NCBI GenBank assembly: GCA_016350165.1
Contig: CP066225.1
Span: 2,480,001 to 2,544,000 of the forward strand
Direction: 5' to 3'
Source: Planctomycetota bacterium
GTDB lineage: Bacteria; Planctomycetota; Phycisphaerae; Phycisphaerales; Phycisphaeraceae
Length of the DNA stretch: 64,000 nt
Below are positions 12,383 to 47,575 of the stretch, piece after piece (position 1 is the first letter of the stretch; the number at the start of each line of letters is the position of its first letter). A program made the position numbers and the translations under genes. The notes beneath the pieces are model-generated. The model saw only the letters and a program-made list of their open reading frames with translations, searched no databases and was not told where the DNA came from.

Positions 12383-12405
12383 GCTTTTAATACCCTAACT
12401 AACGA

Positions 12406-14902: not shown

Positions 14903-14906
14903 ATCA

Positions 14907-15281
14907 CTACTCTTCCCACTTCGCTTTCCAGTCTTCTGTTTCAGGGAAACGTTGTTCGTTCTTAGCGAGTTTTTGGAAGTAAGCGTCCGCAAGGTCGATG
15001 CCTGCTACGTTGGCGAGTTCCATACAGTACATCAATACATCCGCGAGTTCTTCAGCAACCTCAGCTTTGACTTCAGGTTTTTGGATCACCTCATCTGATT
15101 GCTCTTCGCTTAACCATTGGAAGTGCTCCATAATTTCAGCGGCTTCAATAGCGATGCTCATGGAAAGATGTTTAGGACGGTGATACTTACCCCAATCGCG
15201 ACGGTTTGCGAAATCAAGGACAGCTTCTTTGAGTTGCTCCAAGGTTGTGTTATCGTCAGTTGGTTTGGGTTTATCTGTCAT
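14907..15281 (-). CDS. MazG-like nucleotide pyrophosphohydrolase (dCTP pyrophosphatase type)
   Basis: 124 residues, the usual length of single-domain all-alpha NTP pyrophosphohydrolases of the RS21-C6/dCTPP1 group. The entry motif is FANRRDWGKYHRPKHLSMS. The two Mg-binding acidic helices are EAAEIMEHFQW (about 49-59) and EELADVLMYCMEL (about 80-92). It should hydrolyse a (d)NTP to the monophosphate and pyrophosphate and clean the nucleotide pool; base preference is not visible. It is the third gene of a tight minus-strand run (15980 to 14907), 4 nt after the lipoprotein gene. Confidence 0.88.
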   Translation of the reverse strand: MTDKPKPTDDNTTLEQLKEAVLDFANRRDWGKYHRPKHLSMSIAIEAAEIMEHFQWLSEEQSDEVIQKPEVKAEVAEELADVLMYCMELANVAGIDLADAYFQKLAKNEQRFPETEDWKAKWEE

Positions 15282-15285
15282 CGTA

Positions 15286-15684
15286 CTATTGGTCGCCTTG
15301 TTGGAGTTGCTCTACCGTTGGTAATGCAGGAGAAATTCTTGCACGGAAGTTAAGGTTTTGAAAGATTGCGCCTTGTTTAAAAGCTTCTTTGTTGAGTTCA
15401 AATTTCACGCCTGCGATTTCGATGAACGTGCCACGCTCATACCATGCGACATCCAGTTGAGCTTCCCCCTTCTTATCAGTCACTGCTTTATTGGTTTCCG
15501 GTGCAAACGGCCAATACCAACCGGGTTCTGCGTAACTGCTTGCAACCTGTACGTTATCAATCGGTAAACGCGTTTGTTGACGCTCTACAGTAACATCCAT
15601 TTTCTGATAGTTCGTGCAACCGACAAGCATGAACAATATGCAGCCACTGATTAGACCTAACTTATTGATAGACATAAGTCTCAT
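15286..15684 (-). CDS. Small secreted lipoprotein
   Basis: 132 residues from the ATG at 15682-15684, with GAGGAA a few bases upstream that overlaps the stop region of the preceding gene; an in-frame GTG at 15696 is the alternative start. The N-terminus is a lipoprotein signal with lipobox LVGC (Cys at about residue 23). The mature part is a short beta-rich domain (DVTVERQQTRLPIDNVQVAS, then GEAQLDVAWYERGTFIEIAG) resembling a single carboxypeptidase-regulatory-like fold, though I cannot assign it firmly. It lies between a small membrane protein and the MazG-like gene. Confidence 0.72.
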   Translation of the reverse strand: MRLMSINKLGLISGCILFMLVGCTNYQKMDVTVERQQTRLPIDNVQVASSYAEPGWYWPFAPETNKAVTDKKGEAQLDVAWYERGTFIEIAGVKFELNKEAFKQGAIFQNLNFRARISPALPTVEQLQQGDQ

Positions 15685-17714: not shown

Positions 17715-19130
17715 ATGGCGAAACTCGATAACACCCAATGGCGCGAGATGATGACATACTTGCGCAAGAAGCACCCATCCATCTGTAGGCAGTGGTTTGA
17801 GGATCTTACTCCAATCACCCTCGATTCAGGGCTTCTCCAAATTCAAACAACAACCCCTCTGCAGCAAAATTATCTGCAGAAACGCTGCCTCGATCAATTC
17901 ACCGAAGCAGCACAAGCGATCACCGGCAACCTCGTCGCTGTTCGCTTCGTTGACCGTCCCGCCACCCCAAAAACCCCTCCAGCACCCTCACAGCCCACAA
18001 CTGTCAACACAGGCGTCCGCCCTGTCCTCCAAAACGGCCAAACCTCTCTCGAGGCCGACCAAATGGTCATCAGCCCCGATTACTCATTCGAAAACTTCAT
18101 CACAGGCCCCAATAACCAGCTCGCATACGCAGCTGCCGTTGCCGTCGCCAACCAGCCCGGCACAGCCTACAACCCCCTGTTCATCCATGGCGGCGTAGGC
18201 CTCGGCAAGACTCACCTCCTTCAGGCTGTCTGCCAACAGATTCTTTCTGTAAACCCTGAAACAAACATCCTTTACGTCTCATGTGACGCATTCATGAACC
18301 AGTTCCTCGAATGTGTTCAGTCAGGCCAGATGAACGAATTCCGTCATCGCTACCGCCACGTAGACGTACTCGTCATTGACGATATTCACTTCCTCGCCAA
18401 GCGCGACCGCACCCAGGAAGAATTTTTCCATACCTTCAACGAGCTGTACCAATCCAACAAACAGATTGTGCTCAGCTCCGACGCTGCTCCATCCGAAATC
18501 CCTGACCTCGAAGACCGCCTTGTCTCACGTTTCCAGTGGGGCCTCGTCACTCAGGTCACAAAGCCCGGCTTCGAAACACGCGTCGCAATACTCAAAGCTA
18601 AGGCCAAGTTGCGTGGCATCGAGCTTCCAGAAGATGTCATCAACTACATCGCTTCGAAGATTGACTCCAACGCTCGCGAACTCGAAGGTGCATTCACCAC
18701 CATCCAGGGTCACGCTGCCCTTCAGGATCAGCCGATCACCCTCAAGCTCGCACAAAACGCCCTCGGCGACACCCTCGCTGCCTCAGGCCCGAAATCAAAT
18801 CAGGTCACCCTTCAGAACATCATCGACGTCGTCACCGAGTTCTACAACGTTCGTTTGTCAGACCTCCAGTCACGCCGTCGCCACAAGTCAGTCACCGAAC
18901 CACGTCAGGTCTGCATGTTCCTCGCTCGTAAACGCACCCGATTCTCCCTCGAAGAAATCGGCGGCTACTTCGGCGGTCGCGACCACACCACCGTCATGCA
19001 CTCAATCCGCACGATTGATGATCGCATGAAAAAAGACGAAAACTTCGGTGCACAAGTCAACCAACTCGATGCTCAAATCGGCAACGCACCAGCTCACCCA
19101 ACAACCACCCCACTCGCCGAACGCATCTAA
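17715..19130 (+). CDS. dnaA: Chromosomal replication initiator DnaA
   Basis: 471 residues with all four DnaA domains: an N-terminal helicase-interaction domain (1-75), a Pro/Thr-rich linker (80-115), the AAA+ ATPase, and the C-terminal DNA-binding domain. Walker A is GGVGLGKTHL (159-168) and Walker B VLVIDDIHFL (about 218-227). Sensor-type RLVSRFQWGL and the DnaA signature region (RQVCMFLARKRTRFSLEEIG, then GGRDHTTVMHS) are present. The C-terminal tail (ANAPAHPTTTP-like) is short and unstructured. The gene is not next to dnaN, recF or gyrB, as often in Planctomycetes. The coding strand is markedly C-rich and uses C-ending codons. Only weak GAGAG precedes the ATG. Confidence 0.98.
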   Translation: MAKLDNTQWREMMTYLRKKHPSICRQWFEDLTPITLDSGLLQIQTTTPLQQNYLQKRCLDQFTEAAQAITGNLVAVRFVDRPATPKTPPAPSQPTTVNTGVRPVLQNGQTSLEADQMVISPDYSFENFITGPNNQLAYAAAVAVANQPGTAYNPLFIHGGVGLGKTHLLQAVCQQILSVNPETNILYVSCDAFMNQFLECVQSGQMNEFRHRYRHVDVLVIDDIHFLAKRDRTQEEFFHTFNELYQSNKQIVLSSDAAPSEIPDLEDRLVSRFQWGLVTQVTKPGFETRVAILKAKAKLRGIELPEDVINYIASKIDSNARELEGAFTTIQGHAALQDQPITLKLAQNALGDTLAASGPKSNQVTLQNIIDVVTEFYNVRLSDLQSRRRHKSVTEPRQVCMFLARKRTRFSLEEIGGYFGGRDHTTVMHSIRTIDDRMKKDENFGAQVNQLDAQIGNAPAHPTTTPLAERI

Positions 19131-21152: not shown

Positions 21153-22640
21153 TTACTTCGCCTTCCCCATAATCTTCAACGCCTTACCACCAGCTTTCCA
21201 ACTCTTCTTAACCATCCCAACATCTTTACCATCAACCTTACCATCCAAATTCAAATCACCCATCCGCCAAGCTCTCTCTTTGTCAGCCTCCGGGTCAGTT
21301 TCCTTCAACCAGTTCTTTCGCATCACATACAAGTCACCCTTATTCAACATCCCATCCATATTAAAATCTGGCAACCCCTTCTTCATAATGATCTCTTTAT
21401 AAATCGCCTTTAAAAGCGACTTCTCACCCACCGCGTCCTGACCCAACTGCCAAATCATCACACCCTTAAGCTTCTTATCCATCGCCCACGCTACGCGCTC
21501 ACGCATCGATTTGATATTCGTAAACGCTATCTCCCCAGCCTTATCAACCTCTTCACCAATCTTGGGGTTCTCTTTCAAAATCGTCCCATACCCCTTCGCT
21601 TTTTTCCAATTCGTCAGACTACGCCCATAAAACGGCACCCCCATCACCAACTTACCCTCTGCCCCCTTAATCCCATTCTTCTTCATCAAACTCAGCCAAA
21701 AATTAATTGATTCCTGCACACGATCAAACGGACTATTCACAGGCTGAAAGTCATACGTCATCGTCATCACCGCATCCTGCGCAAAACCACGCTTCACCAA
21801 CATCGGCTTCACCTGCATCACCGCCGTCCCCACCGTCTTCTTACCCTTCGCCAACAACTTCGTCAGCTCATAAATAAACTCCGAATACGCCTTCGTCTGC
21901 GTACCAGGATCTGGATACTCCCAGTCAAGATTAAAACCATCCAGCCGATGCTTCTTCACAAACTGGCCAATCTCCTGCACCAACTTGCGTCGCAACTTCA
22001 CCGACGTCATCACCTTCACATACTTCGCCTGAATCTCTTTCGTTCGCCATCCACCAATCGCAACGTGAATCTTCACACCCCGACTCTTACACCCTTTACT
22101 CATCCGCTTCAACAAATCAACATTTTTCTGGGCCATCAACAGATCTCCTTTATCATTAATCCCCGCCTTAAAGAAGATCACATCCGTCAAATATTCAAGC
22201 TTCACCTTCGGCCAAAAATCCTTCACATAATCAGGCATATAGCCGTACACCCGAAAATCCGCGACCTCCAACGTCCGCTCCGGCTTCACCCCACTCACCT
22301 TCAGTTCATCCTTCACCATACGCATCACCACCTCACGCTTCGCAGGCTCACTCTTCTCAACCTGCTGCGCCGGCTTCACCACCTCTTCCTTCTCTTTTAC
22401 AACTTCCTCTTCACCTTCCTTTTCCTCATCCCCAACCACCAATTCCTGTTCCCCTGCCTCCTTTTTCTCCGCCTCTTCCATCCGCTCTTGCCGCGCACGG
22501 TCAGCCCGATCGCGACGAGTCCGCCTCGTCCGACTACTCGCCCCCCAAACATCAGCAGCACTCAACAACAGACTCCCAAGCAACAGCGCGCAAACCAACA
22601 CGCGCCCCGCTGACACTAACTTCTTACAATCATTGAACAT
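21153..22640 (-). CDS. Secreted GH18 glycoside hydrolase with dockerin-like C-terminus
   Basis: 495 residues. After a signal peptide (to about residue 33) comes a highly charged Arg- then Glu/Lys-rich linker (35-105). The GH18 barrel spans about 125-415: VYGYMPDY at its start, HVAIGGW, and the catalytic motif DGFNLDWE (234-241). The acid/base Glu241 and Asp239 are present, but the fourth motif position, usually Asp, is Asn237. YDFQPV and MIWQLGQD (last barrel strand) are also typical. The C-terminus has two EF-hand-like duplicates (DFNMDGMLNKGDLYVM and DLNLDGKVDGKDVGMV), as in type I dockerins. It likely acts on chitin or peptidoglycan-like glycans outside the cell. Substrate is not readable. 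Confidence 0.9.
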   Translation of the reverse strand: MFNDCKKLVSAGRVLVCALLLGSLLLSAADVWGASSRTRRTRRDRADRARQERMEEAEKKEAGEQELVVGDEEKEGEEEVVKEKEEVVKPAQQVEKSEPAKREVVMRMVKDELKVSGVKPERTLEVADFRVYGYMPDYVKDFWPKVKLEYLTDVIFFKAGINDKGDLLMAQKNVDLLKRMSKGCKSRGVKIHVAIGGWRTKEIQAKYVKVMTSVKLRRKLVQEIGQFVKKHRLDGFNLDWEYPDPGTQTKAYSEFIYELTKLLAKGKKTVGTAVMQVKPMLVKRGFAQDAVMTMTYDFQPVNSPFDRVQESINFWLSLMKKNGIKGAEGKLVMGVPFYGRSLTNWKKAKGYGTILKENPKIGEEVDKAGEIAFTNIKSMRERVAWAMDKKLKGVMIWQLGQDAVGEKSLLKAIYKEIIMKKGLPDFNMDGMLNKGDLYVMRKNWLKETDPEADKERAWRMGDLNLDGKVDGKDVGMVKKSWKAGGKALKIMGKAK

Positions 22641-24071: not shown

Positions 24072-25946
24072 TCACTCAGCAACATGTTCACGCACAACCT
24101 CCAAAATCTCCTTCCTGTCAAAACCCTTCGCAACAATCTTCCCTTCAGGCGAAACCAAAATCAGCGTCGGGATCCCTTGCACGCCATACGCCTTCATCAC
24201 ATCCATCTCTTCATCCCAAGGCCCCAAAAATCCCTGATCAAAATCCAATCCATGCTTCCTCACATACTCAACCGCAGGCTCCCTCCCTCGATCCAACGTC
24301 AACATCACAATCTCCCAATTCCCCTGCTCACCATACCGCTCCCAAGCCTCCTTTATAAACGGCGTCTGCACCACACAACTACTGCACCACGTCGCCCAAA
24401 AATCCAACAACACCCACTTACCTCGATAATCATGCAACCGCAGCACCTTCTCCTTATCCATCAATTCAAACACTTCAAAATCAGGGGCATCATCCCCAAC
24501 CTCCAAACGATCAACCTTCATCGCCACGAAATTCCCCACATCCACAACCTTCTCTCCCTCATCCTTCACCACCACTTTCGTATCAATCCGATATCCCGCT
24601 TCCTCTCCAACACCTTCCTTCCCATACAAAATCAGCAACCGATACTCGCCCGGCTCAACATTCCTTATCACAAAATTCCCACGCTCCTGCACCTCAAACG
24701 CATACGACTTCGCCGCCTGCGCCTTCTCAGATGCTTTCTCAATCAAAGCCACATACTCATCCGTCTTTCCAAACTCCTCCAACCACTCCCCTTGCTCATA
24801 GCGATCCATCTCTTCCCATCCCTCAGGCAAAAAACTGTCATCCTCCTCAACAACCATCTCCATCCTCGCATAGTCAATCTTCCAACCCGCTTCCAATCCC
24901 TTCACCTCAACACAACCCTTCACATACAACCCCTCATTACTCAAATCCAACTTCCCAACCATCCAATCAACCTCAGCCTCCATCTCATACAACGTCTTGA
25001 TCCCCTCATCCATCGACTTCGAATCATCCATCACCTCAACCCTCAGCTTCCCCATCGGCACATACTTAAACTCATACTTCCCATCCTCATCCGATCGCCC
25101 CGTACACATCTCATACACAATCGCCGTCGTCTGCTCCGTCCGCACATCATAAACATCGTAATTCGTCTCAGGCTCCAACGATATCATCGCCCCCTTCAAT
25201 AACTCACCATCCATCCAAACCTCACCACGCAACTCACCCCAACCCGCCAACCTCACCACACCAATATCACCCGCCTCCCACTTCTCCTCAGCACTCTCAC
25301 CAACATCATTCCCCTTCAGCCGCTTCGCCATCTCCTCCAAACTAATCACCGCATATCCCCGCTCATGCAACACCAACATCCCAAACTCACTCTTCTGATC
25401 CACCACCTCAAACTCACCCTTCTCACCACTCTCAACCATCGGCAACCTCCGCCGATACACCGGCCCATCAAACCTCACCCGCGCACCCTTCACCACAGGC
25501 ATCACCCGCGCACCCTCAACCCTCATCCCCCAAGCATCGACCACAACACCATTCATCCCGCCCGCAGCTTTCTTCAACTCAACCCTCAACTTCACCGCTT
25601 TCTCACTCGCCCCAACAAACCGCGTCACCCCCGGCTCATACCCCTCCTTATAAACACGAAACGCCGTATACGGGTAATACAACAACTCATTCCTCACCTG
25701 AAACTTATGCCCCTTCACATTGATCTTGTAATTACTCCCCTCAAAATCCCAGTAATAACAAGCCTTATCCGAATAACTAATCCCAGCAAACACCTCTATC
25801 CCGCTTAACTTCTCACCCGTCTCCTCATCCACCACCTCCCCCGTCATCACCTGCACCATCTTCTTCCCACTCTGCCCCCATACCACATCACCACACAAAC
25901 CGATCGCCACCAACATCACTAAAACCAAACTAAAGATATGCTTCAT
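24072..25946 (-). CDS. Secreted thioredoxin-like (TlpA) protein with carboxypeptidase-regulatory-like domains
   Basis: 624 residues from the ATG at 25944-25946 (GAGGG 6 nt upstream). A signal peptide ends at about residue 25. The first 450 residues contain repeated beta-sandwich elements of the carboxypeptidase regulatory-like type: TGEVVDEETGEKLSGIEVF, MNGVVVDAWGMRVEGARVMP, WGELRGEVWMDGELLKGAMI. The C-terminal 150 residues are a TlpA/AhpC-TSA-like thioredoxin domain (DDAPDFEVFELMD, LLDFWATWCSSC). The redox pair is WCSSC (about 520-524), with cis-Pro in QGIPTLILV (about 591). The likely role is extracytoplasmic thiol reduction or redox control. It stands alone, so its partner is unknown. Confidence 0.87.
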   Translation of the reverse strand: MKHIFSLVLVMLVAIGLCGDVVWGQSGKKMVQVMTGEVVDEETGEKLSGIEVFAGISYSDKACYYWDFEGSNYKINVKGHKFQVRNELLYYPYTAFRVYKEGYEPGVTRFVGASEKAVKLRVELKKAAGGMNGVVVDAWGMRVEGARVMPVVKGARVRFDGPVYRRRLPMVESGEKGEFEVVDQKSEFGMLVLHERGYAVISLEEMAKRLKGNDVGESAEEKWEAGDIGVVRLAGWGELRGEVWMDGELLKGAMISLEPETNYDVYDVRTEQTTAIVYEMCTGRSDEDGKYEFKYVPMGKLRVEVMDDSKSMDEGIKTLYEMEAEVDWMVGKLDLSNEGLYVKGCVEVKGLEAGWKIDYARMEMVVEEDDSFLPEGWEEMDRYEQGEWLEEFGKTDEYVALIEKASEKAQAAKSYAFEVQERGNFVIRNVEPGEYRLLILYGKEGVGEEAGYRIDTKVVVKDEGEKVVDVGNFVAMKVDRLEVGDDAPDFEVFELMDKEKVLRLHDYRGKWVLLDFWATWCSSCVVQTPFIKEAWERYGEQGNWEIVMLTLDRGREPAVEYVRKHGLDFDQGFLGPWDEEMDVMKAYGVQGIPTLILVSPEGKIVAKGFDRKEILEVVREHVAE

Positions 25947-26073
25947 CACTTACCCTCGTTAAAATCAAAATCACAAAATCAATACTTCATACATTCATAT
26001 AGACGCACTCACCGCTCACCTCTTGCAAATAAATCCCTGCAACACACCTTTCCGGGTAGCGTCTCTATCCATC

Positions 26074-29163: not shown

Positions 29164-29767
29164 AACCAACATCCCAAGCCCAATCCCATGCCCCACTACC
29201 AAAAATCTCATCCCCACCCTCGCCAACCCCTCGCACCTCTACCCCATCCTTTCCCAAATACTTCGCGCATAACCTCAATGGCCGGTCCGGCCTCATAGAG
29301 GACCCACTCAAACAAACATCTTCTACTGATTGCACCACGCCCAACTCACCTTCCGGGCGCGCACGAAAATGACGGAAATTGGTTTCCACCAGCTTTCAAC
29401 ATTGCAGTTTTTCGCTCATTTCTGACCAAAACGCGCCGATTCTTCACCGTTTTAAGCCAAAACCACCGATTTCTGACCGTTTCCAAACCACCACATCCAA
29501 AACCACACATTTTCGCGCGCACAAAATGAAAGCCACAACCTCAAACTATCCAACAACTTACAAAACCACTTGCAGAAATCAGCACAAAATGCGCGCACGA
29601 AAACAATTTCAAAATCGAGAAATTTAAAACCATCAAACTTTTCATTCGTGCGCCAAAAAGCGTTCAATCCCATCCCCACACGTGTGCACAACATCTGCTC
29701 AAACCTCGCGCGCATTCGTGCGCGCCATCCTTGCCAATTCATCTTCACAATCATGTGCGCCGGCGCA
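29164..29767. other. Gene-free stretch with GCGCGCAC and TTTCTGACC oligomers
   Basis: 604 bases without a gene I trust. GCGCGCACGAAAA-type strings occur at 29357, 29515 and 29591, and as reverse complements (ATTCGTGCGC) at about 29644 and 29714. GATTTCTGACCGTTTCC (29468-29484) matches 16 of 17 bases of the reverse complement of 56592-56608, in another non-coding region. Near 29410-29500 an imperfect ~33-bp tandem unit is visible. Confidence 0.5.
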
Positions 29768-30070: not shown

Positions 30071-30310
30071 TCACAAGCGATGGATCAACGCCCCCAACAG
30101 CAACAGCACACACAACGCCGGCACCAACATCGTCTCCGCTGATACCCCCTCTTCGAGCATCGGCAAAGCCAAAAAACCTGCCAGCCCTAACATCACAACA
30201 CCGCATAACCAGCTCAACCACGCATACTCTTTTTGAGCAACGCCCCACATCAACACAAACACAATCATCACTTCCCCACCCTGATGTCGATTCATATATG
30301 CCATCATCAT
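30071..30310 (-). CDS. Small membrane protein, pair B paralogue
   Basis: 79 residues; GGGAGGCC lies 5 nt before three consecutive ATGs. The C-terminal half (WLCGVVMLGLAGFLALPMLE, then a final hydrophobic helix) is clearly related to 29768-30019. Function unknown; the pair is a second example of small membrane gene duplication within 2.5 kb. Confidence 0.62.
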   Translation of the reverse strand: MMMAYMNRHQGGEVMIVFVLMWGVAQKEYAWLSWLCGVVMLGLAGFLALPMLEEGVSAETMLVPALCVLLLLGALIHRL

Positions 30311-30496
30311 GACTGGCCTCCCGGATTATGACCCTATAAATCCCGCACCCCCTAACCAGCGCTTAGCATATCACAAAACCCCTGAAAAATAAGCTTATAG
30401 GACCTTACAGCCAAACCATTCGCCGTTCAGACACCACTTTTCCAGCAACAAACGTCGTTTTTACAAAAACCTGCCTGAGAACCTGTAAATACGTGT

Positions 30497-30537
30497 CCGA
30501 TAAATAGCGCGAGCGCCCGGCGCGCGCGCATTATCGG
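30497..30537. repeat. 41-bp GC-rich interrupted palindrome
   Basis: CCGATAA (30497-30503) and TTATCGG (30531-30537) are exact inverted copies. Inside, GCGCG (30507-30511) pairs with CGCGC (30523-30527), with a 3x3 mismatch between the stems. It could form a cruciform or an RNA hairpin; there is no T tract. Confidence 0.65.
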
Positions 30538-30948
30538 CCCTTCCCCGAATCAACCACCCCAAATGCCTTGAAATTCACTCCTAAATCGACCTCAAACTTC
30601 AGGGGGCGCGGGCGCCATTCATTTACCGACACCCCAGACCAATCCGAATAACTGGCACGACCGCTACAACCGGATGTCGCCACTTTTTCCACAGAAATTG
30701 TGCATAAACCCGTTTTCCCTGTCATTTAACAAGCTAAACACCGAGTTACCGACAAGGGCCATCGCCAGTTATTGACAGTCGCGCCCGATAAACAGGGGCC
30801 GTCTAATCAAGTGTTTGTCAATTAGCCTCTGGAAAAACAGGGGGAAAACTGGTCGATTGCGCCGCCGACATGTCCCCGAGCGCGCGCCGCGCAGTCCAAT
30901 AACAGCGCGAGCGCGCGCCTCATCAGCACTAGTAGGTCCGTTATTATC

Positions 30949-30980
30949 GGCGCTTCGGCGCGTACCGGCGCAGAAGCGCC
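30949..30980. repeat. 32-bp GC-rich hairpin
   Basis: GGCGCTTC (30949-30956) and GAAGCGCC (30973-30980) pair perfectly around a GC-rich core. The preceding bases contain TTATCGG and a second GCGCGAGCGC block (30905-30914) like the one at 30507-30516. Confidence 0.65.
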
Positions 30981-31363
30981 AAGTTATTCATCAGAACAAC
31001 AAGAACGAAAGTAACTGTAAAATAAGAGGTTATAACGCGAGAATTGGCATGGCGCACAGGCTTTCCACAAAGCGCCAGCATAACTACTAGGTAAGAAGAA
31101 TATATTTATATATATCTCTTTAGTTATGTCATTAAACATGACATCCAGATCCACACCCTTATTTTCCAACCAACCTCAACCTTGCTTAACCATTCAGGAC
31201 CGAATCACTTCTCATTCACCTGGCCACCAACCACCTCTCCCATTCCTCAACTGCAAACATTCTCATCTCCCGATCGCCTGACCCGTCCGTGGCACACAAG
31301 ATGCGCACCCACAACCCAAGACATCTGATCATCTCTCAAATTCAGGTTCGCGCCCAGATGTCG

Positions 31364-32293
31364 CTAACGCTGTTGGCAGCTCGTGCAATACACCGTGGTC
31401 CTGCCTGCAATGACCGCATGGCGAAGTGGCTTCTGGCAATTTGGGCATGGATGGTTTTTGGGTTTGCCGTAGACCTGATGGGCGAGCTGGTAGTCGCCGA
31501 TTTCGCCGTGCCCATTCACGTAGTCGCGCAGGGTGGACCCGCCGGCATCGATGGCCTGCTGCAAAATGGTTTGCATGTTCTGGACTAGGATCTCGGATTG
31601 AGATTGGGTCACTCGGTCAGCTCGCTTCTTGGGGCTGATGTGGGAGGCGTAGAGCAGCTCGTCGACGTAGATGTTGCCGAGCCCTGCAACGAGGTGCTGG
31701 TCGAGCAGAGCGGCTTTGAGGTGGCGTGTGGTCCGCTTGAGGCGGTGATAGAGGTCGGATGGTTCAATGAGGAGGGCATCGGGGCCGAGAGCGTCCCAGT
31801 GGTGAGCATGCAGGTCTTGGAGGTTGGCGTGAAGGCGGAGCTGCCCGAAACGGCGCGGGTCGCGGAAAATGATGGTCGTGGGCGGGTCTTCAGGTGATGC
31901 GGTTGAGGATTGAGAGTGGGGGGAATCGGGGTTTTGGAGTTCGAGGGTGAGGTGCGTGTGAGTGGGCAGTGGGGTGTTGGGGGGATGGAGTTTGAATTGG
32001 CCGGTCATGCCGAGATGGGCGGCGAGTATCCCGCCCTGTTGCGAGGATGTGGTTTTGTGATTGGGTGATGAGGGTGTGGGTGAGAGTAGGAAAGCGAATT
32101 GTTTGCCGTGACGGATGATGCGGGTGATGGTGTGATTGCAGAGATCTTGGAGCTTGAGTGGGGAGTGGTCGTGAGAGCGGGGGGGATGCTTGAGCATGTC
32201 GGGGCGGTGGAGTTGGATGCGTGAGATGATTTTGCCACGGGTGAGTGTGGTGAGTGAGCGGACGACGTTTTCGACTTCGGGCAACTCAGGCAT
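31364..32293 (-). CDS. mutM: Formamidopyrimidine-DNA glycosylase
   Basis: 309 residues. It excises oxidised purines such as 8-oxoguanine and cuts the abasic site. The N-terminus is PELPEVENV, with catalytic Pro2 and Glu3. The beta-hairpin Lys lies in IRHGKQFAF. HLGMTGQF, DPRRFGQLRL and AGLGNIYVDELLY (helix-two-turn-helix) are present. The C-terminal zinc finger is CPNCQ (about 286) and CTSCQQR at the very end, the DNA-contacting loop. Length is about 35 residues more than usual, because of Ser/Thr/Pro-rich insertions near residues 72-85 and 120-137. It is the first gene to the right of the origin-like region. Confidence 0.96.
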   Translation of the reverse strand: MPELPEVENVVRSLTTLTRGKIISRIQLHRPDMLKHPPRSHDHSPLKLQDLCNHTITRIIRHGKQFAFLLSPTPSSPNHKTTSSQQGGILAAHLGMTGQFKLHPPNTPLPTHTHLTLELQNPDSPHSQSSTASPEDPPTTIIFRDPRRFGQLRLHANLQDLHAHHWDALGPDALLIEPSDLYHRLKRTTRHLKAALLDQHLVAGLGNIYVDELLYASHISPKKRADRVTQSQSEILVQNMQTILQQAIDAGGSTLRDYVNGHGEIGDYQLAHQVYGKPKNHPCPNCQKPLRHAVIAGRTTVYCTSCQQR

Positions 32294-38646: not shown

Positions 38647-40865
38647 TCGAATCAATCTTGGGAGTAGGATTAATTGTGCCAGGTCTTGCTATTGCAGGCG
38701 CGGTTGCGGTAAGCGTGCCAATAGGCATTCATTTACTGAGCAGATTGAGAAGAAAGAAATGGTATTGGGGAGCGATGCGATTTCTTGAGCAGGCGATCAA
38801 AAAACAAAGAAGGCGTATGCTGATCGAACAATGGCTGTTGCTTACGTTACGATGCTTGATTGTTGTGTTGGTTGGTGTAGCTATGGCTGGGCTTACAGTT
38901 GATCGGAATTGGCTGATGAGTTTTATTGGCCAAGATCAGGGTCGTGAAGTTCATTTGGTGTTCGATACTTCACTCAGTGGGCACATCATAGATCAAACTC
39001 AAAATAGTGAAGCAATAAGTCGATTAGAGCAGAGCAAGCGAGTTGCAAATCACATCTTGAAATCACTTGATCGGAATGATCAGATCATAATCTGGGGAAT
39101 GGGTAAACCATCAGGCCTATTGTGGGACAGTTCTGAAAATTCAACACCTTCAGCAAGTGAGTACATACAAAAAATCTCAGCAAATCAGAGTGCACATGAT
39201 CTTGCACATGTTCTTGAATCAATTGATGAATATCAAGGTGATAAGACACAAGTAAATAATTTGGAGAAGAATATATTTGTACTAAGTGGATTTTCTAGAG
39301 CTGATGATTATCTATCGAAAGATACTAACAGTACTGCAAATAATAAAAATAAATACTTTGTCACGACTCCTTTGAAGGGTGCTGCAAACTATCAGATATC
39401 AAATGTAAACCTAGATACTAACTGGTTATTGGATGATCAGTCAGGTGGACAAAGGGTGGGAGTTGAAATCGAACTAACTCGTTTCGTCGATTTCAGTAAT
39501 GAAAACGGTTTGTTGAATATTGAAGCTCATGATAAGCAAGGCAATATAGTTGGTAAAAATCATAAAGATATCATTTGGCAATCAAATGAAGATGAAAAGA
39601 GAATCAACACGAGTGTTCTAATAGAACAAATTGATCAGCTGAATAATCAAAATCAATACGCAATCGCAGTTAACTATATCAGTACTTCATATGATGCTCT
39701 GCCAACAGATAACCAAATGACGCGGCTAGTCGAAGTATCAAATAGGATTCACATCGGACTTTTATATGACGAACTAGATGACCAATCAAAACAAAGTGCT
39801 GATTGGCTTACGTTAGCATTAAACCCTTTTCGAGACGTTGAATCAAATACGATTCAAATCAATGAGCTTGCAGATCTACAAAAAAAACAGGATTTAGATC
39901 GCATAGATCTGTTAATAGTACTTGGTGAGGCAGGAAGTGACGATAAGTCATGGAAGTACATTGATGCCTGGCTTGAAGAGAATAGTAAAGCACTTTGGTT
40001 TGTTCCTGTAGATAGAGAGGAACAAGGATTACAGAATCGATTTGTAAATCGTAATAAGGTAAAGAGTACACAAAATACATCAGAAACTTGGTTGATTGAT
40101 CACAATTATCTAGGTTCAGCACTCAAGAAAAATTTATCGGCTGACTGGAAAGGGCTTACGAAAACGATAAAGATTAATCATATCAATAACATAAAAAATG
40201 ACAAAGATGATGAAGTGTGGGCACAGCTAAATTCTGGCGATCCAATTATTTTCAGCAAAAAATATAGGAAAAGTGAGATTGTTCTTTGGAATATTGGGTT
40301 GAATGATTCCTGGAGTAATCTTACAACCAAACCACTATTTATCGCATTAATACAAGAAACATTTCGAAGTATAAATCGTAAATATTCAGAACAAAAGTTC
40401 AATCAATTTATCGATGGAGAAGTTGAAATATCATCTACCACTTCATGGAATAATTCGAAGAACCATAAGCAAAATAAAATCTTTGTTGATACAAACCAAT
40501 CACTTTGGATTCAAAATCACGCATCAATAGCTGGCAATACAAATCAAATTGATAATAAAGAATTTGAAGCCTTTTGGGACAAGCAAGGTCATTGGCAATT
40601 AATTGATTGGAACCAATCAAACAATGCATCTTTTTTTCAAAATGAAAAAATGGATCTGAGTTGGTATTTACTGTTATGTGTTTTGGCTTTGCTAATTACT
40701 GAAATGTGGTTAAGTCGAAGAATGAGTTACGCATTAGATGAATCAAAGAAAACGCTTAGTTCACATATTTTCGATTGGTATGGGAAATTACAGGATAAAG
40801 ATAATGCCAAGCAAAGTAGTAACACATTCAAATCAGTAGATAAGCAAAAACGGGGGGATGGTTGA
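38640..40865 (+). CDS. BatA-like membrane protein with degenerate VWA domain
   Basis: 741 residues. The N-terminal double-transmembrane unit has the BatA form: VPIGIHLLSRLRRKKWYWGAM, RFLEQAIKKQRRR and LEQWLLLTLRCLIVVLVGVAMAG. A VWA-like domain follows, with VFDTSLSG at the metal site. Middle regions are Asn/Gln-rich beta domains. The last 90 residues contain a membrane helix (about 675-694) and a cytoplasmic tail. AGGAGG precedes the ATG, which overlaps the upstream stop by 7 nt. From here to 47.5 kb the coding strand becomes much more A/T-rich than elsewhere in the window. Confidence 0.82.
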   Translation: MLIESILGVGLIVPGLAIAGAVAVSVPIGIHLLSRLRRKKWYWGAMRFLEQAIKKQRRRMLIEQWLLLTLRCLIVVLVGVAMAGLTVDRNWLMSFIGQDQGREVHLVFDTSLSGHIIDQTQNSEAISRLEQSKRVANHILKSLDRNDQIIIWGMGKPSGLLWDSSENSTPSASEYIQKISANQSAHDLAHVLESIDEYQGDKTQVNNLEKNIFVLSGFSRADDYLSKDTNSTANNKNKYFVTTPLKGAANYQISNVNLDTNWLLDDQSGGQRVGVEIELTRFVDFSNENGLLNIEAHDKQGNIVGKNHKDIIWQSNEDEKRINTSVLIEQIDQLNNQNQYAIAVNYISTSYDALPTDNQMTRLVEVSNRIHIGLLYDELDDQSKQSADWLTLALNPFRDVESNTIQINELADLQKKQDLDRIDLLIVLGEAGSDDKSWKYIDAWLEENSKALWFVPVDREEQGLQNRFVNRNKVKSTQNTSETWLIDHNYLGSALKKNLSADWKGLTKTIKINHINNIKNDKDDEVWAQLNSGDPIIFSKKYRKSEIVLWNIGLNDSWSNLTTKPLFIALIQETFRSINRKYSEQKFNQFIDGEVEISSTTSWNNSKNHKQNKIFVDTNQSLWIQNHASIAGNTNQIDNKEFEAFWDKQGHWQLIDWNQSNNASFFQNEKMDLSWYLLLCVLALLITEMWLSRRMSYALDESKKTLSSHIFDWYGKLQDKDNAKQSSNTFKSVDKQKRGDG

Positions 40866-43210
40866 TGTATGTAACGGGTATTCAATCCAGTTGGTTAGAT
40901 TGGCTGTTAGGTTTAAGAAAAATCAGTGCTGATGGTTCAGTACTGAACAGCGATACACTTCATTTGTCTAGCTCATTTGCTGGTTGGGTATGGTTTGTTC
41001 TCATAATCTTCATTCTACTTTCAGTGTATTTTGCCTATGCTCGCTTACTTGGTAAACGCACAGTGCGTGTGTTACTTGGTTCAATCAGAGCTTGCATTTT
41101 CTTTCTTCTTTTTTTAATTTTATGTGGCCCAATGATTGTAGAACGCAATGACAAAATCGAGCCAGACAAAATCATCGTCATGTTGGACAATTCTGCATCC
41201 ATGACAACCAAAGATATTGAATCGGATAATACAAATATAAGTAGATTTGAAGCGATAAAGAAAGTTGTTAATGAAATACAGGAGTACAAATCAAACAATA
41301 GAAAAATAGATTTGTATGCATTTGGTAAAGATTTAAGAAAAATTAATAATAATTTTGACTATATCATAGAACCAAGTAGTACAACATTAATTACCAGCAA
41401 TATTGCTAACGCAATTAAGATGAATAAAAATGATGGAATTGCTGGCATAGTTATAATTAGTGATGGGCGATCTAAAGACTTCTCAGCTAAAAACGTGAGC
41501 TTATCAAGATATACTGAGCAAAAACAAAGAATACCTATTTATACATCAGCTTTAGGATTATCATCAGATCAATTTGACCTATACGTGGATTCTATTGAAG
41601 TCCCCAAACGAGTGTTCGAAGGTGATCATATACCGATTCGAATTAAGGTTGGCGTTCAAGGTGAATTGACAAATCCTTCCGATGTCTATGTTAGCATCTT
41701 CAATCATCGTAATGAACTAGTTGTGCAATTGCCTCTGAGTGATAAAGATGAATTTGGTTATATTAACTATACGATCAAAAATAAGGTAGATAAAAACGAA
41801 CATTGGCGTATTGATGTTAATCTAGAAAAAAAAGGGGATCGTTTAATACATGAAAAGGTAATCGAGAATAATTCAGTTGTATTTAATATTGATGTAATTA
41901 CAAATCCTTTAAGAGTACTGTATGTCGATGGCTATCCAAGATGGGAGCAAAGATATTTAAAAAATATGTTGATTCGTGAGCAATCCGTTGAATGTAGTAC
42001 GTTACTGTTTAGTGCAGATAAAGATTTTGCTCAAGAAGGCAACAACCCAATCAAACGATTACCTAGTAGTCGAAAAGAGTTAGCTGAGTATGATACTGTC
42101 ATTTTAGGTGATGTATCATCGCGAAATCTTGATGAAGATTTTATGCGCAATTTGAAAAACTTAGTAGCTGAACAAAACCTTGGTTTAATTATTATAGGTG
42201 GTGATCGCTTTATGCCACGCACCTATGAAGGAACATTGTTAACAGATTTACTACCTATGCAGAACCCCAGTGGCGTTCAACGGCTTTTCATTGGGAGTGG
42301 GCTATATAACGTAGTTTCAACACAATTAGCAGATAAATTGGGTGTACTTCAGATTAATAAGAATGCTAAAGACTTATCTGTGACAAGTATGCCATCAATA
42401 TATTACGCACAAAATATGGGAGAATTGAAACAAACTGTTGAGCCGATTGCTGTTTTTGCAGATTCAGGCGATGGATCAGGTAAGCCAGAATCAAGCTATA
42501 ACGCGATTACATGGATGCGTTATGGTAGTGGTAGAATTCTGTACATAGCTACTGATGAATTATGGCGGTGGCGTTACGGCAAAGGCGAAACATACTTCGA
42601 ACAAACATGGCTTAGTCTTATCCGATTTGCTGGTAAAAATCGTGCAGGTATCTACGATCAGCCAGTGAATATCGCTATAAATCAAGATGATATTTTAACT
42701 AATGAATACATGCAAGTTGATGTGCATATAAACGACATAGCAATAATTGAATCTTTAAATGATGAAATACGTTTAGATGTTTTTGAGTTAAATCAAATAG
42801 ATCCTACTAATAGCATATTTTTAAAACGTTATTCATCAGATGAAGATCAAAAAAAGTATGCGAAGTTTACAGGTGAGTTTAAGGCAAAAAAATCAGGAGA
42901 TTATGAACTTCAGTTTATAACCCCCGGCGGAAAAATATATAGCCAATCATTTATTGTTCATGACTCAAATGATGAAATGTTAGATGTACGAGCTGATTAT
43001 GAAGCAATGAAACATATCGCTAATACAACAGGTGGAGAATATTTTAAATTAAACGATCTTTCACAAGTTATCGAGAGTATCCCAAGTAAAGCTAAAATAA
43101 TTCCACATGATCAGAGTGAAAGTTTGATCCGTTCACCAGCTATTTTTGGTTTGATACTTATATTGCTAACTGTTGAGTGGATAGGTCGTAAGCTGATCCA
43201 CTTAGCATAA
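40865..43210 (+). CDS. VWA-domain membrane protein, second of the operon
   Basis: 781 residues from the ATG at 40865, which overlaps the previous TGA by one base (TGATG); GGGGGG precedes it. Two hydrophobic helices (about 39-60 and 70-92) are followed by a VWA domain with metal site VMLDNSASM (about 104-112) and VIISDGR. An immunoglobulin-like region and a class I glutamine-amidotransferase-like domain come next (RVLYVDGYPRWEQRYLK, DTVILGDVSS, LIIIGGDRFMPRTYEGT). The last helix (residues 755-775) anchors the C-terminus. No catalytic Cys is evident in the amidotransferase-like part, so a structural role is likely. Confidence 0.85.
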   Translation: MYVTGIQSSWLDWLLGLRKISADGSVLNSDTLHLSSSFAGWVWFVLIIFILLSVYFAYARLLGKRTVRVLLGSIRACIFFLLFLILCGPMIVERNDKIEPDKIIVMLDNSASMTTKDIESDNTNISRFEAIKKVVNEIQEYKSNNRKIDLYAFGKDLRKINNNFDYIIEPSSTTLITSNIANAIKMNKNDGIAGIVIISDGRSKDFSAKNVSLSRYTEQKQRIPIYTSALGLSSDQFDLYVDSIEVPKRVFEGDHIPIRIKVGVQGELTNPSDVYVSIFNHRNELVVQLPLSDKDEFGYINYTIKNKVDKNEHWRIDVNLEKKGDRLIHEKVIENNSVVFNIDVITNPLRVLYVDGYPRWEQRYLKNMLIREQSVECSTLLFSADKDFAQEGNNPIKRLPSSRKELAEYDTVILGDVSSRNLDEDFMRNLKNLVAEQNLGLIIIGGDRFMPRTYEGTLLTDLLPMQNPSGVQRLFIGSGLYNVVSTQLADKLGVLQINKNAKDLSVTSMPSIYYAQNMGELKQTVEPIAVFADSGDGSGKPESSYNAITWMRYGSGRILYIATDELWRWRYGKGETYFEQTWLSLIRFAGKNRAGIYDQPVNIAINQDDILTNEYMQVDVHINDIAIIESLNDEIRLDVFELNQIDPTNSIFLKRYSSDEDQKKYAKFTGEFKAKKSGDYELQFITPGGKIYSQSFIVHDSNDEMLDVRADYEAMKHIANTTGGEYFKLNDLSQVIESIPSKAKIIPHDQSESLIRSPAIFGLILILLTVEWIGRKLIHLA

Positions 43211-43235
43211 CAAAGAAGTAAGTTGAATAATCTTT

Positions 43236-46200
43236 ATGAAGCAAATCATCAATCAACTTAAATCGATAAGAGAGATTGGTCGTTGGTTGCTCATTATGCG
43301 CATGCTTTTATGGTGGGGCATGTTCATTATATTTATAGTTTTGCTTCTGGGAACTTTAGACTATTGGTTGGTCTTACCAACATGGATTCGACTGTGTATC
43401 CTCTTATGCATTATAGCGATTTACGCATTAGGGATCAGTTCACGTTTTAGACATCTACTCAGATTTCAGCCACGTCTTGAAGACATCGCTCTTCATGCTG
43501 AAAATCATATAGTCAGTTTAAAAGGTAAGTTAGCAAGTGCAGTTGGTTTGTGGCTTCGCGATAAAAAAGATAGCAATCGAATAACTAAACAATTATGCTT
43601 CAATTTATCAAAAGAAGTTATTAGCAAAATGCACGGTAAATCGCTGATCGGCTTAGTCAATTTAGCCGAAGTGAGAAAATCACTATGGGGCATGTTTTTT
43701 GCAATTGCAACACTAAGTCTTGTATTTATTCTCACACCACGTTGGCTTGGAACAGCAACATCCCGCTGGCTTCTCCCTTTTGGTAAAGCGAAGTGGCCTC
43801 AAAAAGTTTATATACAAGATCTTACGAAACAGAAAATTTATGCGATTGGTTCACCTCTACATTTTACAGCAGGTATTGAAAAAGGTTTCTCTGACCAAAT
43901 GCGGGTACGCATGCATTATCGTATAGAAGATACGCATGGCAAATCCCTTTCTTCGTGGGAAACAGTTTTAATGAATCAACAAGGTTTTCTGCGTGCAACA
44001 CTTGAGCATCAACAAGTAAAAATTGAATGGGGATTTGTAGAACCAATCAACAATAATAGCTTTCAGAAGAAACTAAATTCTTCAGAAGTCATGCTCCCAA
44101 AATTCGAGAAAACAGTTCAAATAGATTTGGAGAATATCGATTTTTCTACTGACGATAATATTAACAGTGAGTTAGCTATTAACTATTGGTTTGAATCTGC
44201 TGATGATAGGACAGAAAATTCGATCATTGCACTAACAGAAAAGCCAGCAGTTAACTCTATTTCATTAAAAATAACCCCACCTAAATATGCGACAGATCTA
44301 CTAAAAGATCAAGAAGTAGTACTCCATGATCAGTTATACCAAAGCTCGATTGATGATTTGAAAACAATTTTGCAATTTTCGCAATTAGAAGTGACCGTTA
44401 AAGCAAACAAAAAATTGAATGAGCAAAGCCAACAAAATATTTATCCGGGTTTCGGTAGCAACAATGATCTGATATTCACAAGAGTACATAACAAATCGAA
44501 TAGTTTAGATATGCTTAAATGGGTCATCACCCAAGATGTAGTAAGTACAATCAATTTGCAGGATGAAATGGGCATCTTCAATCGTGATGATTATGTATTG
44601 GATTTTAAAACACATCACGATGAAAACCCAGAGATACAAATCAGTGCACCTAAAACCGATCTAGCTGTACTATCACAGGCAGTTATCCCCATTGAAATAA
44701 TAGCCCAAGATGACGTTGGCTTAAAATCATTAAGTGTAAAAGTTAACGCACCGATCAAGAACAGTGGAGGTGAATCTGTAAGACAAGATGATCTTCTTGC
44801 TCATGAAAATCTACAAGTAAATTCAAGTAGTTTAAAAACTGAGTTAAATCTGGAAAATTACAATCTCCAAGTTGGTGACTATATACAAGTCTACGGCATT
44901 GCGATTGATGTCTTCGAGGTAAATGGCAAAACCCATCCAGAAACAAGATCACTAACAAGAACGCTGCGTATCGTTGATCAAGTTACCCTAACGAATCTAT
45001 TACGCAAAGATATTTCATTGATTAGGCAGCATGCTATACGTGCAGAAAGACAACAAAGACAGCAACTAGATCAGCCATTAGATGAGAACAAGCAAAAAAG
45101 TATCACTAAGCGTATCAATCGAATGCAGAAAATGCTGGATGAAACAAATACAAAAATTAAGCAAAACAAATTAGAAGATTCAGTATTAAAGGAACTGCTT
45201 AATAATGCAGAGCAATTATTATCAAACGCTCAAGGCAGCAGTGAGCAAATTAAAGCCATTCACCAGAATAATGATAACAAAAAACATATGACTAATGTTG
45301 TAGATAAATTAGGACAACTAATTCACGTGCTCAGCCAAGGCAAGAGTGTTTCCGATTTGCAAATGCGCCTAAAACAAATAGAGGCAATTCAACGATCTTT
45401 GCAAAATGACACACGTCAACTTTTACCAAAAACCATCGGCCGCACTGAAGGTGAGTTAGATCCAAATACAAAAAAAGAAATGAAAGAGATTGCAAATCGT
45501 CAACAAGAACTAAGTAATCAAACCGAAAACATGCTTGAGCAAATGCAAAAAACAATTGAGCAAATGAAGCAATCTGAAAAAGAAAGTGATCATACCGCGG
45601 GCGAGGCTATGAAACAAGCAGCTGACATAGCCCAGAAGCAAGGTCTTAATGAAAAAATGAAAGATGCTGCTCAACACATCGACAATAACAAGTTATCGCA
45701 AGCAGGATCTAAACAAAGTGATGCAGTAAGTGTGATGTCTCAAATGATGGGTGCGTTGAATGATCGGAAAAAAATTAAAGCACAGATGCTTGCTCGAAAA
45801 TTGAAAGAACTCGTCGATCAACTTGAACAACTTGTCAAAGACCAAGAGTCGGAGCTGAAGATTCTACATCAAGCTAATGATATACAGAATTTAGAACATG
45901 ATATGGTTCTTCTTCGCAGACGTACTATGGCTGCCGGTAACCTTGTGAGTAAATCAAAGAATATTGATAAAAATCCACCACTAAAAAGTGTTTTTCAGAT
46001 ACTGAAAAATGCTGGTCAAAAACAAGGTGAAGCAATTTTCAGTTTGCGCTCATCAAATAAAGATATAGCTGTTATCGCGGAAGAACGTTCATTGTCACTG
46101 CTAGAGGAAGCAGTCAGATTAGCCAAAGAAGCAATAGAGCGTGGGCAATTACAACAACTTATTGAAGAACGTGAGGAGTTAATTAATCAATATCGTGAGT

Positions 46201-46868
46201 TAGCGGAAAATCAACGCGATATTCAAGATGAAACAAAATTAATTCAAGATCAAAAAATCCAAGGCCGTAAAGCTCGATCAAAATATATTAGTCTAGCCAA
46301 ATCACAAAATGAAATTCGACAAGCAGCTAATAAGCTTAGTGAAAAAGTAAAAAACAACACCGTATTCATATACGAGCATAATCGTATAGATCAGGATTCG
46401 CAGAATATACAAAGCATGCTTCGTAAAGGACGAGCACAAGATAACGATAATAATGTAGTTGATGTTCAGGAAGATATTGCAGACAGTTTAGTAATGATGG
46501 CCGATGTTCTGGAAATGCAAAACGAAGAGAGCAAATTTGCACTGAGCCAGGGCGGTTCAAATGCTGGAGGTAGTGGTTCAGCAGGAAGTCAGCAACCCAA
46601 AATGATTCCTCCAGTTGCAGAATTAAGATTATTACGTGCTATGCAAATCGGCTTGAATCTACAAACTAAAAAAATGAATGAATCAAATTCCAAGAATACC
46701 AAACAAGCTGAACTATTAAGTCAACGACAGTCCGACCTGGCCGATCTAAGTAAAGCAATGCTTAAGAAAATGCAGCAAAATTCAAATCAAAAAATGACAG
46801 CACCGATTGAACAAAAAACAGACAAACCAAATATTGATGAAAAAGTAACGGGGGATATCCGATCATGA
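43236..46868 (+). CDS. Large coiled-coil membrane protein (DUF4175-like)
   Basis: 1,210 residues. Three hydrophobic helices lie near the N-terminus (about 19-45, 49-67 and 153-170) and are separated by RPRLEDIALHAEN, typical of the DUF4175-type proteins found beside MoxR/VWA operons. A beta-rich domain (about 190-570) with repeated Ig-like strands follows. From about 590 to 1,130 the protein is a Gln/Lys/Glu-rich coiled coil (KEMKEIANRQQELSNQTENM, KLKELVDQLEQLVKDQE). The end is low-complexity and hydrophilic. It may serve as a long scaffold for the VWA proteins. The stop overlaps the next start by 4 nt (ATGA). Confidence 0.8.
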   Translation: MKQIINQLKSIREIGRWLLIMRMLLWWGMFIIFIVLLLGTLDYWLVLPTWIRLCILLCIIAIYALGISSRFRHLLRFQPRLEDIALHAENHIVSLKGKLASAVGLWLRDKKDSNRITKQLCFNLSKEVISKMHGKSLIGLVNLAEVRKSLWGMFFAIATLSLVFILTPRWLGTATSRWLLPFGKAKWPQKVYIQDLTKQKIYAIGSPLHFTAGIEKGFSDQMRVRMHYRIEDTHGKSLSSWETVLMNQQGFLRATLEHQQVKIEWGFVEPINNNSFQKKLNSSEVMLPKFEKTVQIDLENIDFSTDDNINSELAINYWFESADDRTENSIIALTEKPAVNSISLKITPPKYATDLLKDQEVVLHDQLYQSSIDDLKTILQFSQLEVTVKANKKLNEQSQQNIYPGFGSNNDLIFTRVHNKSNSLDMLKWVITQDVVSTINLQDEMGIFNRDDYVLDFKTHHDENPEIQISAPKTDLAVLSQAVIPIEIIAQDDVGLKSLSVKVNAPIKNSGGESVRQDDLLAHENLQVNSSSLKTELNLENYNLQVGDYIQVYGIAIDVFEVNGKTHPETRSLTRTLRIVDQVTLTNLLRKDISLIRQHAIRAERQQRQQLDQPLDENKQKSITKRINRMQKMLDETNTKIKQNKLEDSVLKELLNNAEQLLSNAQGSSEQIKAIHQNNDNKKHMTNVVDKLGQLIHVLSQGKSVSDLQMRLKQIEAIQRSLQNDTRQLLPKTIGRTEGELDPNTKKEMKEIANRQQELSNQTENMLEQMQKTIEQMKQSEKESDHTAGEAMKQAADIAQKQGLNEKMKDAAQHIDNNKLSQAGSKQSDAVSVMSQMMGALNDRKKIKAQMLARKLKELVDQLEQLVKDQESELKILHQANDIQNLEHDMVLLRRRTMAAGNLVSKSKNIDKNPPLKSVFQILKNAGQKQGEAIFSLRSSNKDIAVIAEERSLSLLEEAVRLAKEAIERGQLQQLIEEREELINQYRELAENQRDIQDETKLIQDQKIQGRKARSKYISLAKSQNEIRQAANKLSEKVKNNTVFIYEHNRIDQDSQNIQSMLRKGRAQDNDNNVVDVQEDIADSLVMMADVLEMQNEESKFALSQGGSNAGGSGSAGSQQPKMIPPVAELRLLRAMQIGLNLQTKKMNESNSKNTKQAELLSQRQSDLADLSKAMLKKMQQNSNQKMTAPIEQKTDKPNIDEKVTGDIRS

Positions 46869-47575
46869 AATTATTAATCATCATATCTGTAACTTTGCTT
46901 TTTATCTCTACACATCAAATTGCCAATGCGCAATCATTAGATGAGTTACTGGGCTTGGATGACGATACTTCACCAACTAATGAGCAAACACCTTCACAAG
47001 AACAAACAGTTCAGGCGGTAGATACAGTTGATGATGATAAGATGAAGCGTGCCTTGTCTGGTCAAGATCCATCAGATCTTTTTGAGAAAGTCATTGTTGA
47101 AATGAACGATGTCAGTCGCCGGTTAAAAGATAAACACGTTGGTTTACAGACGCAGCGTGAGCAAATCGAAATCATTAGCAAGCTTGACCAAATCATTGCG
47201 CAAGCCAAGCAACAGCAATCAAGTAGTGGCAAAAGTAGTCAAAACCAAAAACACAAGCAGTCGCAATCCGATCGCTCTGGAAAATCACAAGCAAAACAGA
47301 GCAAAGCAAGTTCGCAAAAAGGCAAGATCCAAACAAAAGCAGGCGAAAATAAAGGGCAGGCTGGAGTCAGTTCTTCTTCCCAAGCCACAAGCGATGACAA
47401 AGCACTGCGTGAAACACGCATGGAATGGGGCCAACTCCCCGAGCGCGTCCGAAAAGAAGTTGAAGAGGGAATGAACGAGCGATTCAGTTCAAAGTATCGC
47501 CGTTTGACCGAACAATATTACAAACGATTAGCAGAAACAAAGAGCGGCGAGTCCGCCGAGGATGATTCGTACTGA
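46865..47575 (+). CDS. Secreted Gln/Ser-rich small protein of the MoxR operon
   Basis: 236 residues with a signal peptide ending at about ANAQS (residue 22). A short acidic stretch with SLDELLGLDD is followed by a helical segment (DPSDLFEKVIVEMNDVSRRLKDKHVG...QREQIEIISKLDQIIAQAKQQ). A Ser/Gln/Lys low-complexity region (about 118-180) and a conserved-looking C-terminal helix (LPERVRKEVEEGMNERFSSKYRRLTEQYYKRLAE) follow. That C-terminal block occurs in many planctomycete operons of this type. The gene starts inside the preceding stop (ATGA), so translation is coupled. Confidence 0.75.
   Translation: MKLLIIISVTLLFISTHQIANAQSLDELLGLDDDTSPTNEQTPSQEQTVQAVDTVDDDKMKRALSGQDPSDLFEKVIVEMNDVSRRLKDKHVGLQTQREQIEIISKLDQIIAQAKQQQSSSGKSSQNQKHKQSQSDRSGKSQAKQSKASSQKGKIQTKAGENKGQAGVSSSSQATSDDKALRETRMEWGQLPERVRKEVEEGMNERFSSKYRRLTEQYYKRLAETKSGESAEDDSY

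Follow-up and report, generated by a model that had tools for sequence, protein, structure and literature searches.

A very likely DnaA-dependent replication origin beside fpg in a planctomycete chromosome with sawtooth GC skew

Introduction

Bacteria are considered to limit initiation of replication to one origin per chromosome (reviewed in PMC10331603), and as of 2015 evidence was lacking for a chromosome with two functional origins (PMC4403523). GC skew is typically about 2.5% in the SkewDB collection, where additional skew peaks can reflect several origins, inversions or assembly errors (PMC8941118), and rearrangements can also create local skew minima (PMC4403523). In some cyanobacteria multiple origins have been reported together with irregular skew (PMC7198777). 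For the basal unwinding system (BUS) of bacterial origins a rule has been given by which a DnaA box with at most 2 mismatches is followed, after at most 16 bases, by at least three DnaA-trios (PMC8287927). In human replication N-domains the skew rises abruptly and then declines gradually.

Here we describe a window of 64 kb (bases 2480001-2544000) from the genome of a Planctomycetota bacterium that consists of one contig of 5,234,020 bases (G000); positions are those of the window unless stated otherwise. The sole genome of the same genus in the sets searched, G001 (4.29 Mb), has a contig that starts with dnaA. The original prediction, made from sequence alone, had proposed a candidate chromosomal origin in this window away from dnaA.

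Results

The region at 30301-31363, hereafter oriC, is very likely a DnaA-dependent chromosomal origin, although no experiment was done and initiation in cells is inferred. The sequence-based support, namely uniqueness, conservation, position beside fpg or dnaA and skew polarity, is shown below, while DnaA binding, unwinding, fork loading and any role of the GC hairpins are inferred. The features are as follows.

17715-19130, + strand: dnaA, in many relatives next to fpg, the two genes convergent
30301-31363, no strand: oriC region, 1.06 kb, left of fpg; left border arbitrary
30497-30537, no strand: GC hairpin 1, arms CCGATAA...TTATCGG, alternating-GC tract; z -3.1; 95% identical in G001
30623-30631, + strand: TTACCGACA repeat, copy 1; kept in G001
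30685-30693, + strand: DnaA box TTTTCCACA; reads TTATCCACA in G001
30699-30707, - strand: DnaA box TTATGCACA, inverted partner, 5 bp apart; kept in G001
30746-30754, + strand: TTACCGACA repeat, copy 2; kept in G001
30785-30791, + strand: CCGATAA, within the conserved block GACAGTCGCGCCCGATAAA
30815-31090: short ORF, 91 aa, TTG start; sole listed ORF inside the oriC region
30880-30918, no strand: GC hairpin 2, alternating-GC tracts; z -5.1; mostly conserved in G001
30949-30980, no strand: GC hairpin 3; z -4.2; left arm and loop identical in G001, right arm changed
31061-31069, + strand: DnaA-box-like CTTTCCACA, 2 mismatches; first part of the unwinding-type module
31070-31083, + strand: GC-rich spacer AAGCGCCAGCATAA
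31084-31099, + strand: CTACTA (two DnaA-trio-like triplets), then GGTAAGAAGA
about 31100-31121, no strand: AT-rich tract, likely unwinding element (inferred)
31364-32293, - strand: fpg (mutM), adjoins the origin module in many relatives

Exact matches to TTWTNCACA number 355 in the genome and four in the window, and two of these four, at 30685 (+) and 30699 (-), fall within oriC, where about 0.07 would be expected in 1.06 kb. With these two exact boxes and one two-mismatch box, DnaA boxes cluster above chance at oriC; that only two of them are exact counts against the origin call. Both + strand copies of TTACCGACA in the window lie here (30623 and 30746), with one - strand copy elsewhere, and four of the 12 occurrences of TTATCGG/CCGATAA in the window are found at 30497, 30531, 30785 and 30944. 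At 31061-31121 a DnaA-like box, a GC spacer, CTACTA and AT-rich DNA follow one another in this order. Thus the proposed clustering of DnaA-box-like sites, TTATCGG-type repeats and an AT-rich block held, all elements being present, while the claim of two strong GC hairpins held only in part, as three were counted. The short ORF at 30815-31090 is probably no gene, because in G001 the corresponding frame runs into a stop codon after 54 residues, and scans of the window with Rfam (gathering threshold) and for tRNAs gave no match.

Between G000 and G001 the oriC region aligns in patches (76% over 456 bp, 95% over 41 bp), and the DNA between these patches has diverged. The near-identical patches comprise hairpin 1, both copies of TTACCGACA, the paired DnaA boxes, hairpin 2, the left part of hairpin 3 and GCTTTCCACAAAGCGCCAGCATAACTACTAGGTAAGAAGAATATAT.

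Among members of the family dnaA and fpg are often convergent neighbours, and inspection by eye of the gap between them revealed a recurring module composed of a DnaA-like box, GCGCCAG or GACAGGG, a tract of TACTA/GAAGA triplets and AT- or pyrimidine-rich DNA. A sequence-only model of this module (R1) was trained on 16 genomes of 15 other genera, with G000 and G001 excluded, and run on 101 whole genomes, where stricter filters may lose weak matches; 77 of the 101 had a match at E<=1. In the 5.23 Mb of G000 the best match was 31061-31116 (E 5.0e-7; runner-up 0.038), and no other site than oriC reached E<=0.01. An nhmmer search of a 2.1-Mb sample of G000 was concordant (E 1.4e-5 vs 3.6). Matches at E<=0.01 were obtained in 16 of 44 non-training genomes (G001-G060), and all 16, with match positions read by hand against dnaA and fpg, lay 1.25 kb or less from the 3' end of fpg or dnaA, a conserved position near dnaA or fixed neighbours. 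The remaining 28 of the 44 had no R1 match at E<=0.01, some having weaker ones at the same place, and G061-G100 were omitted from this count, as dnaA and fpg positions were not searched there. The module is present in six families of the order.

Since the matches in other genomes adjoin the 3' end of dnaA or fpg, the site in G000 probably corresponds to the former gap between these genes, with insertions having separated it from dnaA. The gap between the two 3' ends is thus the probable ancestral oriC site, and it is likely that insertions split an ancestral dnaA-oriC-fpg cluster, so that the location of oriC away from dnaA, correctly predicted here, is apparently secondary. The predicted distance of 12 kb to dnaA on the left also held (11.4 kb from dnaA to 30497); within this genus the module lies about 12 kb from dnaA in G000 and 6 kb in G001. 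In G031, G017 and G011, where 24-30 kb of the same contig separate dnaA from fpg, the module adjoins fpg; in G012 the two genes are on separate contigs and the module adjoins dnaA. Separation of dnaA and oriC is thus likely to have arisen more than once, although no tree was made.

The stretch between dnaA and oriC encodes a glycosyl hydrolase 18 (chitinase-like) protein with a dockerin domain (21153-22640; G001 counterpart 68% identical) and an ORF with an AhpC/TSA-thioredoxin match (24072-25949); its nine other ORFs had no Pfam match. On the other side of fpg, at 39000-47000, the DNA is low in GC (0.33-0.37), carries large + strand ORFs and is perhaps acquired. A second DnaA-like protein (34% identity) is encoded at contig bases 2246353-2247426 of G000, and by hand count such a copy, 29-42% identical, is found in 58 of 61 genomes, G000 included.

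At oriC the top strand has 26 C and 4 G in 31201-31260 and 24 G and 10 C in 31441-31500, exactly as counted in the original prediction, and the sharpest change from C-rich to G-rich lies at 31326, within the predicted interval of 31260-31440. With 0.91 across 2.5-kb flanks it is the largest of 38 such changes sampled. A switch from C to G bias is therefore present at oriC but is not specific to origins, and by itself it is not diagnostic, because such switches are common in this genome; in this respect the prediction had to be corrected. For the global trend 39% of the genome was sampled, as the window and 100 further stretches. The sampled cumulative skew forms a significant V, whose amplitude was reached by none of 5000 permutations, with mean skew per base of -0.0285 on the left and +0.0383 on the right. 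Its minimum is broad (point estimate 2.69 Mb, 5-95% range 1.70-2.84 Mb) and includes oriC at 2.511 Mb, 177 kb from the point estimate, and its maximum is near 4.92 Mb, the antipode of oriC being at 5.13 Mb. The whole-genome skew check proposed with the original prediction, made here on this sample, is thus compatible with oriC but is not sharp. Among relatives, of which 27-40 kb were examined, the cumulative-skew minimum was within 3.4 kb of the module in only four of eight genomes, and G021 showed no skew switch in the stretch examined.

The local GC skew of G000 has a sawtooth profile, with 38 upward jumps of at least 0.5 vs no downward one in 2.06 Mb. A jump was defined as a change of 0.5 across 2.5-kb flanks, a threshold chosen after viewing the G000 profile and reused unchanged on G001, where 11 upward vs no downward jumps were found in 0.44 Mb (samples L002-L101, L160-L179 and L276-L277, G000 and G001). 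Lower thresholds gave a smaller excess in G000 (50 vs 7 at 0.4, 65 vs 35 at 0.3); in G001 there were 12 vs 2 at 0.3. Changes from -0.3 to +0.3 took a median of 2.25 kb (n=41), and the reverse changes 8.9 kb (n=20; p 8e-9); increments in skew had a skewness of 1.19 (bootstrap 1.03-1.33). One jump occurs in every 31-41 kb, which extrapolates to roughly 130 in a genome, and oriC (0.91) ranks first in G000, followed by one of 0.80. Mean skew is about 0.35-0.4 at 2-3 kb from a jump and near zero at 13-14 kb, and AT skew drops at 35 of the 38 jumps. Of 44 jump-free 20-kb pieces, 36 show a downward slope, and skew is below 0.1 in 27% of the 2-kb bins of these pieces. As would be expected of a chromosome with multiple origins, a sharply rising and gradually falling skew of origin polarity is found across the samples.

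In the three intervals available the cumulative skew peaked 0.62, 0.55 and 0.48 of the way from one jump to the next. If a midpoint rule applied, inserted genes would shift the midpoint, and this would explain why collinear genes left of dnaA are skewed in opposite directions in G000 and G001. A G-rich block occupies 1-15500, left of dnaA, and has its boundary, at about 15.8 kb, close to halfway between oriC and the next upward jump, at contig base 2476226; some genes of this block are C-rich on the same strand in G001 though collinear.

As a control we used 73 dnaA-bearing loci from diverse bacteria (1.33 Mb; seven of 80 dropped as shorter than 8 kb or with many N). These contained no jump of at least 0.4 in either direction, and their nine jumps of at least 0.3 were all upward and within 1.8 kb of the dnaA start. 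Jumps in G000 have the polarity of an origin. Since the control loci are centred on dnaA, they give little information on what lies beyond them in each genome. Ten further genomes from the order (0.34 Mb, 20-40 kb each) likewise had no jump of at least 0.4 either way, which does not exclude single genomes; at 0.3 their joined stretches had one downward jump (G009) and no upward one.

Conservation of jump positions between G000 and G001 is partial. Nine of the 11 jumps of G001 were mapped to G000 by script, four of them, oriC included, matching a jump of at least 0.5, one a change of 0.31 and four changes of 0.18 or less (90% quantile of the null, 0.57). One further pair in the same gene was matched by hand (G001 4265000 and G000 2456576).

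Alternating-GC tracts cluster within about 2 kb of the jumps. The motif GCGCGC, discovered on the jumps of G000 and then checked on G001, occurs in intergenic DNA at 2.12 per kb near jumps, 0.18 in other low-skew DNA and 0.35 elsewhere in G000 (1.44, 0.48 and 0.12, respectively, in G001). CGCGCG shows the same enrichment at jumps, and TGCGCA is raised about two- to threefold. GC richness as the source of this signal was rejected, as GGCGCC, CGGCCG and GCCGGC are not enriched to a similar degree; G000 shows a rise in GGGCCC and CCGCGG, based on few matches (5 and 10), that G001 does not share. The oriC region holds seven GCGCGC in G000 (1063 bases) and nine in G001 (1278 bases), while the 500 bases left of fpg hold 0-3 in 17 relatives. 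Clusters are not always jumps, as four GCGCGC lie at 56329-56700 without one. Another cluster of five is situated immediately left of oriC, at 29357-29720. At the other 37 jumps DnaA boxes were not enriched (4 found, 3.1 expected), nor were TTATCGG and TTACCGACA. A known initiator site at each jump was not found, with no second R1 match at E<=0.01 in G000. Jumps had no preference for intergenic DNA (ORFs contain 30 of the 38 and cover 79% of the sequence). The 20 ORFs scanned of the 30 containing a jump point shared no genes; 17 had Pfam matches to unrelated functions and three had none at 1e-8.

Discussion

With a test independent of skew, our analysis locates oriC in a bacterial order that has received little study, and indicates that oriC and dnaA can separate while oriC remains adjacent to fpg. 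By its layout, and by analogy, the site would work like a BUS. In this model DnaA would bind the paired boxes at 30685 and 30699 and the box-like site at 31061, and a DnaA filament would extend rightward across the GC spacer and the CTACTA tract and open the AT-rich tract at 31100-31121, from which two forks would depart, with C-rich DNA on the left and G-rich DNA on the right. The box and spacer of the BUS rule are present (CTTTCCACA with 2 mismatches, spacer 14), and the trio number is not reached, there being 2 trios in both G000 and G001. As the strict rule, which was passed by 4 of 18 elements vs 67 of 3000 random 90-mers, is unmet, we say that the site may work like a BUS and not that it is one by that rule.

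The jump at oriC is the largest of dozens of the same polarity, and its size is unmatched in the 73 control loci. In the limited literature searched, no description of such a sawtooth from a bacterium was met. For sharp upward jumps followed by steady falls a simple cause would be replication leaving fixed points, as in human N-domains, and more than 100 replication start sites would leave such a pattern, which remains unproven. A bolder reading is that this genus has about 130 fixed, locally encoded start sites of bidirectional DNA synthesis, oriC being the strongest, marked by clusters of the GCGCGC palindrome and not by DnaA boxes, and delimiting N-domains of about 30-40 kb. We regard this reading, in which fork direction is inferred, as possible, with the balance tilting against it: the jumps lack a known initiator site, the global trend around oriC persists and local repair could mimic the pattern. 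If it were true, a bacterial chromosome would be split into replication N-domains in a eukaryote-like manner. With so many jumps of one polarity, it can be tested directly whether a large number of fixed start sites can serve one bacterium.

The strongest alternative for the sawtooth, which we find as easy to accept as to reject, is strand-asymmetric repair or recombination that begins at alternating-GC tracts and extends in both directions, the tracts having no role as origins. Such tracts could adopt cruciform or Z-DNA structures, and this explanation is favoured by the absence of DnaA-box enrichment at the 37 other jumps (4 vs 3.1 expected) and by the persisting weak global trend around oriC. 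Against it, the jump polarity matches that of origins in the control loci, and jump-free stretches mostly still slope, with few bins near zero skew. That the sawtooth is a mosaic of inverted segments in a genome with strong skew is very unlikely: inverted and relocated gene blocks do exist between G000 and G001, but equally sharp switches of both signs would be expected, whereas 38 vs 0 and 11 vs 0 were found (65 vs 35 in G000 and 12 vs 2 in G001 at 0.3), and collinear genes left of dnaA are oppositely skewed in the two genomes. A plain inversion mosaic was rejected as sole cause.

Regarding oriC itself, the locus could instead be a DnaA-binding regulatory or titration site, with the true origin elsewhere, for example directly upstream of dnaA. 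The scarcity of exact DnaA boxes, the many skew switches of the genome and the unmet trio rule speak for this possibility, but the module is unique in the genome and follows the 3' ends of dnaA or fpg in relatives, the skew jump at oriC is the largest and G001 jumps at the same place, so that we consider it very unlikely. Strand bias can track transcription, but gene direction, instead of replication, as the cause of the local skew change is all but excluded and was rejected, since third-position skew, which reaches 0.8 or more in either direction, owes only 0.5% of its variance to gene direction (R2 0.005, 1343 ORFs; 3.4% for the halves around oriC), the fraction of coding bases within 6 kb pointing away from jumps is 0.478, and fpg on the minus strand sits in top-strand G-rich DNA.

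Taking oriC as a DnaA-dependent origin, it is similar to bacterial origins of the DoriC type in its DnaA boxes, AT-rich stretch, place in a gap near dnaA or fpg and skew switch, but differs in the distance of 11-12 kb to dnaA, apparently due to insertion, in its few consensus boxes, in its three GC hairpins and in a very strong local skew. It resembles the BUS in the order of parts, the 14-nt spacer and the AT-rich side, but has two CTA triplets, where the BUS has at least three, and a two-mismatch box. Under the many-origin reading, G000 would be comparable to cyanobacteria with more than one reported start site per chromosome (PMC7198777); their GC skew is irregular, whereas G000, on which no experiment has been done, has sharp jumps that share a single polarity. 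Human replication N-domains (PMC3320577, PMC4729899) share with G000 the abrupt upward jumps of skew and the gradual fall between them. Human N-domains are megabase-sized and weaker in skew, whereas the domains of G000 are bacterial, tens of kb in size and stronger in skew.
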